DNA from: Xanthomonas sp. DAR 35659
Lineage (GTDB): Bacteria; Pseudomonadota; Gammaproteobacteria; Xanthomonadales; Xanthomonadaceae
Assembly: GCF_041242975.1 (NCBI RefSeq)
Contig: NZ_CP162488.1
Span: 858,001 to 922,000 of the forward strand
Reading direction: 5' to 3'
Length of the DNA stretch: 64,000 nucleotides
Program-made: the position numbers and the translations under genes
Shown here: in pieces, positions 7,798-12,407 of the stretch
Layout: the number at the start of each line of letters is the position of its first letter
How positions within the stretch are numbered: the stretch's first letter is position 1
The notes under the pieces: model-generated
The model's input: the letters and a program-made list of their open reading frames with translations, nothing else
Databases searched by the model: none
Told to the model about the DNA's origin: nothing

Positions 7798-9234
7798 ATG
7801 CCCCGTTCGTTGTTGCGGCAATTGCTGCTGATCTGGATCGTCGTCGCCGTCGCCTGCGTGGGCATGGCGGTGGTGCTGGTCGGCCTGTACCGGCATAGCG
7901 AGGGGGTACGCGCCGAACGCGCGCAGACGGCGCTGCGCGCCACCTGCACGCGCATGGTGCAGCGCTACAACGGCGCCAGCGCCGCGGCCCACGGCAGCGA
8001 CGGCACCGGCCTGGCGGCGGTGGTGACCCAACTGGTGCTGGCCGACGCCGCCGGCGTGGAGGGCGGCTTCTGGGACCGCCAGCGCGGCTTCCTCGCCTAC
8101 GCCTACCCGACCTACGAGGGCAGCGAGCACAAGACCGATGTGCCGTCGGCCGAACGCAACGTCATCGTGTCCACCGCGCAGCGCGGCGTCGCCGCGCAAC
8201 ACGCGGTGGACTACAGGCGCGACGGTCAGCGCGAAAGCCTGTTGATCGCGGCGTGCCCGCTGGACCGCAGCGCCGCGGCCTGGACCATGACCCGGGTCGC
8301 CTCCAGCGATGCCGCGGCCAGCCTGCCGCTGGCGCTGGGCCTGGCCCTGATCCTGGCCCTGGTGGTGGTCTCGGCGCTGGCGCTGGGCTGGGTGGTGCGG
8401 CGCTGGAGCCAGCGCCTGCAAAGCATCGAACAGGCGCTGGCGACCCCGGCCGAGGTGCCGGACATTCCGCGCACCGGCGCGCCGGAACTGGACCGGCTCG
8501 GCGCCGCGGTCACCGACTACGCGCAGCGCAGTGCGCGGGCGCTGGCCGAGACCCGCCGGCTCGGCGAGGAACTGTCGCGACACGAGCGCCTGGCCGCGCT
8601 CGGGCGCATGACCGCGACCGTGGCGCACGAGATCCGCAATCCCATCGCCACCCTGCGCCTGGGCCTGGAGAACCAGATCGCCGCCGCCGACGCGGGCTTC
8701 GACGAGGCCCAGGCGCAGCTGATGCTGGCGCAGATCCAGCGCCTGGACGGGGTGGTGGAAAGCCTGCTCGGCATGGTCCAGCCGATCCGCCTGCAGCGGC
8801 GGACCGTGGAGCTGCGGCCATGGCTGCAGGCGCTGCTCGACCCCAACGACTGGGACGGTCAGGTGCCGCCGATCGCGCTGCACCTGCAGGCGGCGCCGGC
8901 GCAGTGGATGCTGGACCCGCAGCAGGCCGCGCGCGCGCTGCACAACCTGTTGCGCAACGCGATGCAGCACGCCGCGCCCGGCACCGCGGTGACCCTGGCG
9001 GCGCAGGCGGAGGACGATCGCCTGCTGTTGCGCGTGCGCAATCAGGGCGAGCCGGTGCCGGCGCCGGTGGCCGCGCATCTGTTCGAGCCGTTCGCCAGCG
9101 GCCGCAGCGACGGCAACGGCCTGGGCCTGGCGCTGGTGCGCGAGATCGCCCGCGCCCACGGCGGAGAGGTGCAGTACGCGCACCGCGACGGCATCACCGA
9201 GTTCAGCCTGGAGCTGCCATGGCGCGCATCCTGA
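7798..9234 (+). CDS. membrane sensor histidine kinase paired with a sigma-54 activator
   Basis: A 478-residue kinase with transmembrane helices at about residues 7-28 and 175-200 flanking a ~145-residue periplasmic sensor region of no recognised family. A linker/HAMP-like segment follows, then the HisKA dimerisation domain with the H-box [15 protein letters not shown] (His near 277), N-box [10 protein letters not shown] (about 383) and G-box GNGLGLALV (about 440). It overlaps the response-regulator start by 16 bases, so the two are translationally coupled and form a two-component pair. The signal is unknown; the sensor region contains [19 protein letters not shown]. Confidence 0.9.
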
Positions 9235-10556
9235 TCATCGACGACGACACCGCCTTCCTTGGCACCCTGCAGGCCACGCTGCGCTCGTTCGGGCACACGG
9301 TGCTCGCCGCGGCCGATCCGCGCGAGGGCCTGGCGCGGCTGCGCGAGGACGGCATCGACCTGGCCTTCGTCGACTTCCGCATGCCCGGCATGGACGGCAT
9401 CGCGCTGATGCGTGCGCGCCAGGACGATGCGCAGGCCATGCGCGTGCCGCTGGTGATGCTCACCGCGCATGCCTCCAGCGGCAACACCATCGAGGCGATG
9501 AAGCTCGGCGCCTTCGACCACCTGGTCAAGCCGGTGGGCCGCGCCGACATCGCCGAGGTGGTGGAGCGCGCGCTGCGCAGCCGCGGCGACGACACCCAGG
9601 TGGACACGCCGGCGGCGCCGGCCGAGGACGAGGACGCGCTGCTCGGCCACAGCGCGGCGATGCGCACCGTGCACAAGCGCATCGGCCTGGCCGCCGCCTC
9701 CGACCTGCCGGTGCTGATCACCGGCGAAACCGGCACCGGCAAGGAACTGGCGGCGCGCGCGCTGCACCGCGCCAGCGGCCGCGCCGCGCAGCCGTTCGTG
9801 GCGATCAACTGCGCGGCGATCCCCGCCGAGCTGATGGAGAGCGAACTGTTCGGCTACCGCAAGGGGGCGTTCTCCGGCGCCGTGGCCGACCGCAGCGGCC
9901 TGATCCGCGACGCCGACGGCGGCACCCTGTTCCTCGACGAGATCGGCGACATGCCGTTGCCGATGCAGGCCAAGCTGCTGCGCTTCCTGCAGGAGGGCGA
10001 GGTGTCGCCGCTGGGCGGGCGCGGCGCGCAGAAGGTGGACGTGCGGGTGATCGCCGCCACCCACCGCGACCTGACCCAGGCGGTGGACGCCGGCCGCTTC
10101 CGCAGCGATCTGCGCTACCGGCTCAACGTGGTGCCGATCGAACTGCCGCCGCTGCGTGAGCGCGGCGACGACATCCTGCTGCTGGCGCAGCACTTCCTTG
10201 CCGCCGGCGCCAGCGCGCCGCAGACGCTCTCGGCGGCGGCGCAGGCGCGGCTGCGCGCCTATCCCTGGCCCGGCAACGTGCGCGAGCTGCGCAACGCCAT
10301 GCAGCGCTGCCAGGTGCTGGTGCGCGCCCCGGTGATCGAAGCGCACGACCTGGACGAGGTGCTGGCGCAGCCCGCCGAGACCCCGGGGGCGGTTGGCACC
10401 GAGGTGCTGACCCTGCCGCAGGCGATCGCGCAACTGGAACGGCGGATGATCCAGGCGGCGTTGGACCAGGCGCACGGCAATCGTGCCGAGGCCGCGCGGC
10501 GGCTCGGTATCCATCGGCAGTTGCTGTATCGCAAGCTCGACGAGTACGGGATGTAG
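9219..10556 (+). CDS. NtrC-family sigma-54-dependent response regulator
   Basis: A 445-residue activator: receiver domain with Asp8-10 and phospho-acceptor Asp52 (FVDFRMPG), an AAA+ domain with Walker A GETGTGKE (about 169-176) and Walker B LFLDEIGD, and a C-terminal Fis-type HTH ([20 protein letters not shown]). The sigma-54 contact loop reads GAFSGA (216-221) instead of the canonical GAFTGA. It is coupled to the kinase gene upstream. A palindrome, IHF site and sigma-54 promoter occur within 230 bases of its stop codon, so the downstream PPHLS-repeat genes are the obvious target. The Ser variant retains a hydroxyl and is probably active. Confidence 0.92.
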
Positions 10557-10578
10557 GCGGCGGCGCGATGCGTGCCGC

Positions 10579-10664
10579 GGGATTGGGGATTGGGGATTGG
10601 TCGCGGCGCGCGCCGCCTGGTCCGCCGGCTGTTGCCAATCCCGAATCTCGAATCCCCAATCCCC
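10579..10664. repeat. inverted clusters of a GGGGATT heptad repeat
   Basis: Tandem GGGATTGGGGATT units at 10579-10600 are mirrored by AATCCCCAATCCCC-type units at 10635-10664. They could fold into a long stem-loop after the activator gene. The same heptad recurs at 41873, 43244 and 58148, so it is a dispersed intergenic element. Confidence 0.7.
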
Positions 10665-10667
10665 CCG

Positions 10668-11616: not shown

Positions 11617-11636
11617 TCCGTCGCGCCTGACCCAAC

Positions 11637-11661
11637 GCGCCCGCCGTTCCGCGGCGGGCGC
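11637..11661. other. GC-rich stem-loop between the two PPHLS genes
   Basis: GCGCCCGCC (11637-11645) and GGCGGGCGC (11653-11661) form a perfect 9-bp stem with a 7-base loop. No T-run follows. It may act as an attenuator or mRNA-processing/stability element rather than a full terminator. Confidence 0.4.
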
Positions 11662-11705
11662 CGCCGGCTCCCGCCGGCATCCCCCTCGTTTGTCTGGAGA
11701 ACGCA

Positions 11706-12407
11706 ATGCATTGGGTCGATCCCGATTCCCTGCCGGAAACCCGCGGCACGCTCGCCCGCTTCCTGCTCAACCCCAAGGCCGACGTCGATGGCCTGCTGTT
11801 CGACGACGGCACCGAAGTGCACACCCCGCCGCACCTGTCGGCGCAATTGCTGAAGGCGCTGCGTCCCGGCGCCCACCTCGGCGTGCGCGGGCTCAAGCCG
11901 CGCGGCGCCGATGTGCTGGTCGCATTGGCGATCGATCCGGACGGCGCTGCGCGCATCGCAGACGAAGGTCCGCACGCCGCGTCGCCTAAGCCAAAGCCGA
12001 AGCCGAAGCCGAAGCCGAAGCCGCCGGGCAAGCCCAAGTCCGTGCAGGACGCGGTACAGCACGTCGGCACCATCGCGCGACTGCTGCACGGGCCGCATGG
12101 GCAGGTGCACGGCGCGCTGCTGGAGGATACGCTGATCGTGCGTTTTCCGCCGCACGCGGCGCCGGACCATGCGCGCTGGCTGGCCGCCGGCAAGCCGCTG
12201 GCGGCGCAGGGCGACCTGCTGGACTCCGCGCACGGCCAAGTGCTGCACGCGCATGCGCTGGGTGCCAGCGCCGCGACGTTGCAGCCGTTGCCGCCGAAAC
12301 CGAAACCGCCCAAGCCTCATCACGAGCCGTTGCACGGGCATGCGCATGATGCTGCGCCGAAGCACGGGCCCAAGCCCAAACCGAAGCCCAAACCGAAGCC
12401 CCACTAA
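11706..12407 (+). CDS. PPHLS/PPHA module protein with Lys-Pro repeat linkers, no signal peptide
   Basis: A 233-residue paralogue of the preceding gene. Module 1 (about 11-62: LNPKADVDGL, HTPPHLSAQL) matches the upstream module 1; module 2 (about 119-170: HGPHGQVHGA, RFPPHAAPDH) matches its module 2. The two-module unit was therefore duplicated as a whole. The Pro/Ala linkers are replaced by Lys-Pro repeats (around 95-110 and at the C-terminus), encoded by an in-frame AAGCCG hexamer array. The N-terminus MHWVDPDSLPE lacks a signal sequence, suggesting a cytoplasmic protein. TGGAG precedes the ATG. It is probably co-transcribed from the sigma-54 promoter 940 bases upstream. The function is unknown. 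Confidence 0.78.
   Translation: MHWVDPDSLPETRGTLARFLLNPKADVDGLLFDDGTEVHTPPHLSAQLLKALRPGAHLGVRGLKPRGADVLVALAIDPDGAARIADEGPHAASPKPKPKPKPKPKPPGKPKSVQDAVQHVGTIARLLHGPHGQVHGALLEDTLIVRFPPHAAPDHARWLAAGKPLAAQGDLLDSAHGQVLHAHALGASAATLQPLPPKPKPPKPHHEPLHGHAHDAAPKHGPKPKPKPKPKPH

Follow-up and report, generated by a model that had tools for sequence, protein, structure and literature searches.

In ZraPSR, as described in PMC4987338, a kinase and an NtrC-type regulator control a small periplasmic output protein: ZraR drives zraSR and zraP via sigma-54 promoters, the latter gene encoding a periplasmic chaperone. The same source gives the GlrR enhancer at glmY as TGTC-N10-GACA. Two-component control of a periplasmic OB-fold protein is described for VisP/YgiW with QseBC and for VCA0732 with VC1638-39 (PMC5636140). 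Regulation by NtrC-type activators with sigma-54 is already known, as is the control of periplasmic OB proteins by two-component systems. We analysed a 64,000-nucleotide stretch of Xanthomonas sp. DAR 35659 (the whole of which is called the window), in which genes for a membrane sensor kinase and an NtrC-type activator are followed by two paralogous genes, PPHLS-1 and PPHLS-2, and an MFS transporter gene. Comparison of related loci supports a regulon in which the kinase would act through the activator, an enhancer and a predicted sigma-54 promoter on PPHLS-1, PPHLS-2 and the transporter.

The locus shares with ZraPSR the kinase, the NtrC-type regulator, the sigma-54 promoter and a small output protein predicted to be periplasmic. 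It differs in that this output is a predicted tandem OB protein encoded downstream of the regulators and not divergently, in that a cytosolic paralogue and a transporter are added, and in that kinase and activator, which score with ZraS and ZraR among other NCBIfam families, stay under both cut-offs (380 against 760 for the ZraR equivalog). By Pfam, NCBIfam and its predicted beta OB structure, PPHLS-1 is not a ZraP homologue. The unit differs from the VisP and VCA0732 systems in its two OB modules per protein, its probable inside/outside pair, the lack of a BOF sequence match and its NtrC-type activator with a sigma-54 promoter. The TGTC and GACA half sites of the GlrR enhancer recur here with a spacer of N9, one base shorter, but the activator scored 367 against a GlrR cut-off of 763; for NtrC, the values were 427.7 and 558.6. 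From SSB and PriB, the PPHLS proteins differ by their tandem modules and probable export, and their 56-row profile had no sequence match to PDB chains at E 1 or better. No account of this kinase/activator/PPHLS system was found among the titles and abstract openings listed by the literature searches, and neither the combination nor the PPHLS family matched any entry found.

Control region upstream of PPHLS-1

All three control elements lie 3' of the activator stop (10556) and 5' of the PPHLS-1 start (10825), spanning 111 bases and ending 222 bases past that stop (Table 1). The initial annotation had placed the kinase, the NtrC-type activator, a palindrome, an IHF site, a -24/-12 promoter and two paralogues at this locus, with the control elements within 230 bases; Pfam and pattern scans recovered every part, and the end at 222 bases makes the latter statement correct. 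Two of its readings have to be amended: the -12 element is CTGC and not TTGC, and the activator loop is GAFSGA and not GAFTGA. The palindrome (CATCTGTCCGC-AAA-GCGGACAGATG, with 11-base arms) was matched once in the window and in none of 100 shuffles. WATCAANNNNTTR was the single window match to the IHF pattern (0.13 expected) and TGGCAYNNNNNYTGCW the single match to the -24/-12 pattern (0.43 expected), and the distance from promoter to enhancer core was 90 bp. In 64 kb, a match to the IHF or the promoter pattern alone would not stand out; what raises the two above chance is their conservation.

Table 1. Features of the unit in the window.
Feature	Position	Strand	Basis
Membrane sensor histidine kinase, 478 amino acids; periplasmic domain ca. 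residues 33-168	7798..9234	+	Pfam HisKA/HATPase_c
NtrC-type response regulator / sigma-54 activator, 445 amino acids	9219..10556	+	Pfam Response_reg, Sigma54_activat, HTH_8
Enhancer palindrome (putative upstream activating sequence), core TGTC-N9-GACA	10668..10692	.	Pattern scan and conservation
IHF-type site AATCAATAACTTA	10745..10757	+	Exact consensus
Predicted -24/-12 promoter TGGCACGGCCTCTGCA	10763..10778	+	Pattern scan, locus conservation, spacing
PPHLS-1, probably exported tandem OB-fold protein, 263 amino acids, Pro-rich tails	10825..11616	+	
Predicted OB module 1 of PPHLS-1 (residues 54-131)	10984..11217	+	Secondary structure of model
Predicted OB module 2 of PPHLS-1 (residues 151-224)	11275..11496	+	Secondary structure of model
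PPHLS-2, paralogue without signal-peptide-like start, 233 amino acids, Lys/Pro-rich linker and tail	11706..12407	+	Translation, alignment
MFS transporter, member of the conserved unit	12580..13836	+	Pfam MFS_1

Conservation was evaluated on loci from a named-genome scan with an 11-row alignment, which found 103 relatives, the best 80 of which were kept. This sample was drawn by the PPHLS motif and includes groups of close relatives: 29 Xanthomonas loci and 51 others, among them Rhodanobacter, Pseudomonas oryzihabitans, Variovorax, Paracidovorax, Roseateles, Nitrospirillum, Bradyrhizobium, Hyphomicrobium, Roseomonas, and one metagenome-assembled genome (MAG) each of Polyangiaceae and Terriglobia. 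The control-region counts are based on the 71 loci with both an activator and a PPHLS match (26 Xanthomonas and 45 others, covering Xanthomonas, Comamonadaceae, Pseudomonas, Alphaproteobacteria and MAGs). The remaining nine were excluded for want of one match or the other; of the nine loci without an activator, five have the match near a contig end.

Between activator and PPHLS, the enhancer form GTC-N8-GGAC was present in 64 of the 71 loci, against 1.25 expected from shuffles (misses: L102, L111, L112, L126, L132, L145 and L146). With either GC or GA at -12, the -24/-12 pattern was present in 65 loci against 1.95 expected (misses: L141, L145, L151, L154, L159 and L166), and with GC only in 47 against 0.6. 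The exact IHF consensus on either strand was found in 26 loci (0.18 expected) and was unevenly spread, with 2 of 26 Xanthomonas loci and 24 of 45 others; among genus-level regions, the window included, 13 of 15 had it, and the other two were shortened by a wrong start choice. Of the 78 distances between enhancer and promoter obtained over the 80 loci, 50 were 89-91 bp, 14 were 67-69 bp, eight were 79 bp and six had another value, which places 72 of 78 in three classes. The eight 79-bp cases equal the Pseudomonas loci in number, and those listed at 79 bp are Pseudomonas loci. The classes are about one helical turn apart, as would suit an enhancer that has to lie on the polymerase-facing side. 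For 208 promoter-like sites in these loci, an enhancer lay within 200 bases upstream in 63 and within 200 bases downstream in five.

An earlier scan that required GC at -12 gave scores of at least 10 in 22 of 48 PPHLS upstream regions versus 7 of 354 others; it left out four loci without a called PPHLS frame and missed the Comamonadaceae variant. When 17 regions from Comamonadaceae and relatives were aligned, the -12 element was GA in 14 and GG in three (L141, L151 and L159), which may reflect a family-specific sigma-54 preference. Loci with GA or GG include L149, L152, L153, L163 and L139; RpoN was present in the genomes checked, and their activators carry GAFTGA. In the 5.4-Mb genome of the strain itself, the looser palindrome core TGTCCGNNAANCGGAC had one exact match. 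Matches with one mismatch numbered 6, versus 21 for a backwards control, and thus showed no excess; at five such places the best -24/-12 score in the scanned stretch was 9, versus 11 at the window site.

The control region also holds other repeats. Between the activator stop and the enhancer of the window (10579-10664), GGGGATT repeats face AATCCCC with 14-base perfect arms, and the same gap in several genus members carries a GTAGGAGCGGC-TTCA-GCCGCGAC element, which we take to be REP-like. In L065, L067, L068 and L069, the enhancer arms in the gap between activator and PPHLS-1 are lengthened to 22-23 bases. Seven loci (L122, L123, L124, L135, L138, L156 and L166) have two enhancer copies 22 bases apart, which by their coordinates lie at least partly within a C-terminal extension of the activator frame. 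A divergent pair of exported PPHLS genes with four enhancer copies between two promoters was seen in L142 (4778-6606). L137 has an enhancer/promoter pair 5' of PPHLS and, by eye, enhancer-like and -24-like sequences (4458-4610) that follow the activator and precede a CitMHS-type permease gene.

In three genomes, regulators and PPHLS gene are found at separate places: Variovorax paradoxus 110B (L148/L204), an Acetobacteraceae MAG (L140/L205) and a Terriglobia MAG (L168/L206), contig binning being a caveat for the two MAGs. At another place, each of these genomes has a strong kinase match (1.7e-217, 4.6e-183 and 1.8e-164, respectively) with an activator alongside. The enhancer was present at all three unlinked PPHLS genes, with the -24/-12 pattern at two and a -24 element with GG at -12 at that of V. 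paradoxus. Behind the regulators in L205 comes an MFS gene with an enhancer and promoter immediately 5' of it. PPHLS and MFS genes can therefore each carry the control region alone. The initial annotation had derived the regulatory target from layout; it now gains comparative support from the conserved footprint, the fixed spacing, the unlinked enhancers and the matched presence and absence described below.

Composition and distribution of the unit

A single 84-residue sequence, searched across the class, matched only the strain's own genome (1 of 369); such a query was too insensitive, and alignments were therefore used. In a family-wide search of 247 genomes, 20 had matches at E 1e-77 or better, while 29 of the 49 matching genomes were discarded as partial (E 1.2e-6 or weaker); G015 and G019 gave weak C-terminal matches only. 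Among 20 genomes of the genus, including that of the strain, kinase and PPHLS were both present in 16 and both absent in four. The order thiamine pyrophosphate (TPP) enzyme, kinase, activator, PPHLS-1, PPHLS-2, MFS was seen in 18 of 20 related genus loci; the remaining two belong to G001 and G012, which retain the kinase, the activator and PPHLS-1. The TPP enzyme was rejected as a member of the unit: its gene is present in the four genus genomes lacking the unit and had no match in G001 and G012. In two of those four, the match to the window resumes, from ca. 15946 onwards, ca. 180-200 bases after the TPP match, so that a block of the window is missing there in one piece. The 4.6-kb block to which the whole regulon had been assigned does hold the parts named for it, but the conserved unit extends to the MFS gene. 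Relatives of this gene were found in 59 of the 71 activator-bearing loci, and a CitMHS-type permease cluster was present in 15 of the 80 loci, in some other taxa (Pfam test on two of the 15). A hairpin with 9-base arms lies between PPHLS-2 and the MFS gene in the window.

Co-occurrence was examined in 398 Pseudomonadota genomes, including that of the strain, with cut-offs of E 1e-80 for the kinase and E 1e-8 for PPHLS; at most four candidates per genome were scored in one search and at most seven in the other, and at least two genomes apparently overlap with the named-genome scan. The kinase was found in seven genomes and PPHLS in nine, with both in six, the kinase alone in one and PPHLS alone in three (Fisher p 1.1e-10 with the strain's genome and 4.2e-9 without it). 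Three of the other five genomes with both were examined, and in these the kinase, activator and PPHLS genes adjoin, with enhancer and promoter. In the kinase-only genome, G761, an activator lies beside the kinase and, farther on, there is by eye a CitMHS-permease-like frame, which a permease query did not match at E 1e-6.

In two examined genomes of the PPHLS-only genus, 12 kb of sequence contained no recognisable enhancer/promoter pair, and by eye the gene start resembles that of an exported protein. These genes (L227:5690-6460 and L228:5547-6323) had no kinase, activator or enhancer match; by eye their neighbours are ATP synthase- and peptide transporter-like frames, and genomes of this genus measure 2.0-2.5 Mb. 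A Rhodanobacter MAG (L120) has PPHLS and MFS, with no enhancer/promoter match and no strong kinase match in its genome. The PPHLS protein can therefore exist without the circuit. PPHLS genes away from the regulators and without a -24/-12 promoter, one of the conditions that the initial annotation had named as refuting its reading, do occur.

The PPHLS proteins and their regulators

In a search of the strain's genome at E 0.001, PPHLS-1 and PPHLS-2 were the sole two matches of the family. Each has two modules, and PPHLS-1 alone has a signal-peptide-like start, which agrees with the initial proposal of one exported and one cytoplasmic paralogue. By a crude hydropathy test, 43 of 52 two-gene loci combine one exported with one cytosolic copy; a strict threshold was used, as a looser one made one Xanthomonas PPHLS-2 exported via an upstream start.

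Every Pfam and NCBIfam family stayed below its cut-off for both proteins, and weak matches to Cuticle_1, TonB_N, JmjC and cytochrome families were dropped as low-complexity or short. DUF5666 (PF18914) was matched by three of the 56 family members with a best E of 0.14, which is no confident match. The predicted structure of the modules is the five-stranded b1-b2-b3-a-b4-b5 barrel that defines the OB-fold superfamily. The description of an unrecognised repeat family therefore applies to the sequence libraries that were searched, whereas the predicted fold is a recognised one.

The frames of kinase and activator share 16 bases (9219-9234). The activator combines a receiver, a sigma-54 AAA+ domain and a Fis-type helix-turn-helix in one chain, the NtrC-type domain set by Pfam. 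A GAFTGA, GAFSGA or GSFTGA loop was matched in 67 of 70 rows, the rows without a match being L122, L138 and L142. GAFSGA, presumably an active form, occurs in the window and in the Xanthomonas and Pseudomonas rows, and the other matched rows have GAFTGA or GSFTGA. RpoN was detected in all 13 genomes checked. In a midpoint-rooted tree of 47 activators, the window sequence clusters with Xanthomonas, its nearest named relatives; Xanthomonas is joined with Comamonadaceae and Sphaerotilaceae, and Pseudomonas is placed among mainly alphaproteobacterial and MAG rows. This topology suggests, but does not prove, that the unit moved between classes.

An AlphaFold2 model of the kinase (mean predicted local distance difference test 79.1; predicted template modelling score 0.41) shows periplasmic elements in the order helix-helix-strand-strand-helix-three strands. 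This order fits a-a-b-b-a-b-b-b, which we take to be a trait of PDC/sCACHE sensors, and the likeness may serve as a lead. No Cache family was among the 25 of 29 families listed for 38 members, the profile of this domain had no match to PDB sequences at E 1, and the fold-search list for the model was taken up by kinase core matches. The domain carries a nearly invariant VEGG-W motif and two nearly invariant cysteines. The latter (C50 and C153; both lacking in L154) could form a disulfide or a metal site.

Proposed function and alternatives

It is proposed that the kinase senses a periplasmic cue via its compact domain and phosphorylates the activator, which would bind the palindrome ca. 90 bp 5' of the promoter. 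An IHF bend would bring it onto the sigma-54 polymerase, and PPHLS-1, PPHLS-2 and the MFS gene would be transcribed. Judging from their sequences, PPHLS-1 would pass to the periplasm and PPHLS-2 would stay in the cytosol; both tandem OB proteins may bind the compound sensed by the kinase or its oligomeric product, one on each side of the inner membrane. The transporter (in other taxa also the CitMHS-type permease) would move the compound out, and PPHLS-1 probably also damps the kinase. Ligand binding, export and damping are suggested by analogy with ZraP and VisP. On balance, we consider it more likely than not that the unit is such a sensor-controlled regulon, whose OB proteins bind, and whose MFS transporter exports, a periplasmic compound.

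Several observations weigh against this reading. G001 and G012 have the kinase, activator and PPHLS-1 but neither PPHLS-2 nor MFS there. No MFS gene was found in the sequence of 12 of the 71 loci, including all eight from Pseudomonas (three of the other four are truncated by contig ends), and the irreducible output may therefore be something other than transport. PPHLS occurs without a kinase match in three of 398 genomes, all of one genus, and the 71 loci, with their groups of close relatives, are not independent. The exported/cytosolic calls depend on the crude hydropathy test, and the structural matches are mainly nucleic-acid binders. The VEGG-W-type motif is absent from the Pseudomonas rows and from L138, and the sensed cue may therefore differ.

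A ZraPSR-like envelope-stress loop, in which PPHLS-1 would mainly be a periplasmic accessory acting as chaperone or in kinase feedback, with MFS and PPHLS-2 secondary, is unlikely. The smallest recurring set, seen in the eight Pseudomonas loci, is kinase, activator and one exported PPHLS, and the ZraS and ZraR scores and the promoter arrangement of zraSR and zraP point the same way. The absence of any Pfam or NCBIfam family and the predicted beta OB structure of PPHLS-1 speak against it, and the recurring cytosolic copy and transporters are foreign to ZraPSR as described (PMC4987338).

A special form of the proposed regulon would be a ligand relay, in which the periplasmic and cytosolic tandem-OB proteins pass one compound to and from the dedicated transporter while the kinase reads the periplasmic side. 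We hold this to be rather doubtful; to our knowledge, such a sensing-and-export device has no described counterpart.

Still less probable is that the ligands of the PPHLS proteins are fragments of oligosaccharide or peptidoglycan, as is reported for VisP/YgiW, and that the transporter moves such fragments. Periplasmic OB proteins under two-component control do exist in the VisP/QseBC and VCA0732/VC1638-39 systems (PMC5636140). However, BOF was absent from the 14 Pfam families matched by any of the 56 PPHLS members at E 1 or better, and no BOF entry was named among the 50 structural matches listed, which does not exclude a BOF fold. Moreover, YgiW consists of one OB domain.

Binding of extracellular or cytosolic single-stranded nucleic acid or nucleotides appears very unlikely. 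SSB and PriB are the top structural matches of the PPHLS model, and the Pfam tRNA_anti-codon OB family matched six of the 56 members weakly (best E 0.0094), but a common OB fold shows no function, the conserved residues are by eye mostly Gly, Asp, Pro and His, and such a role fits poorly with export and transporter linkage. Finally, it is scarcely credible that the promoter, IHF site and palindrome arose by chance or belong to some other gene, as the window expectations given above, which alone would allow it, are outweighed by the recurrence of enhancer and promoter over the loci at fixed spacing, by which a chance promoter was ruled out.

The sensor-controlled regulon thus turns what was a reading of layout into a defined, testable unit, seen in alpha-, beta- and gammaproteobacteria. 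Its enhancer motif and spacing are exact enough for targets to be predicted in further genomes. PPHLS constitutes a protein family with a predicted tandem OB fold and the PPHLS motif, below all Pfam and NCBIfam cut-offs here, linked to transporters and often present as a probable exported/cytosolic pair. In Pseudomonas, the unit has shrunk to one output gene in the available sequence, which makes it a clean system for the role of an exported OB protein in signalling.

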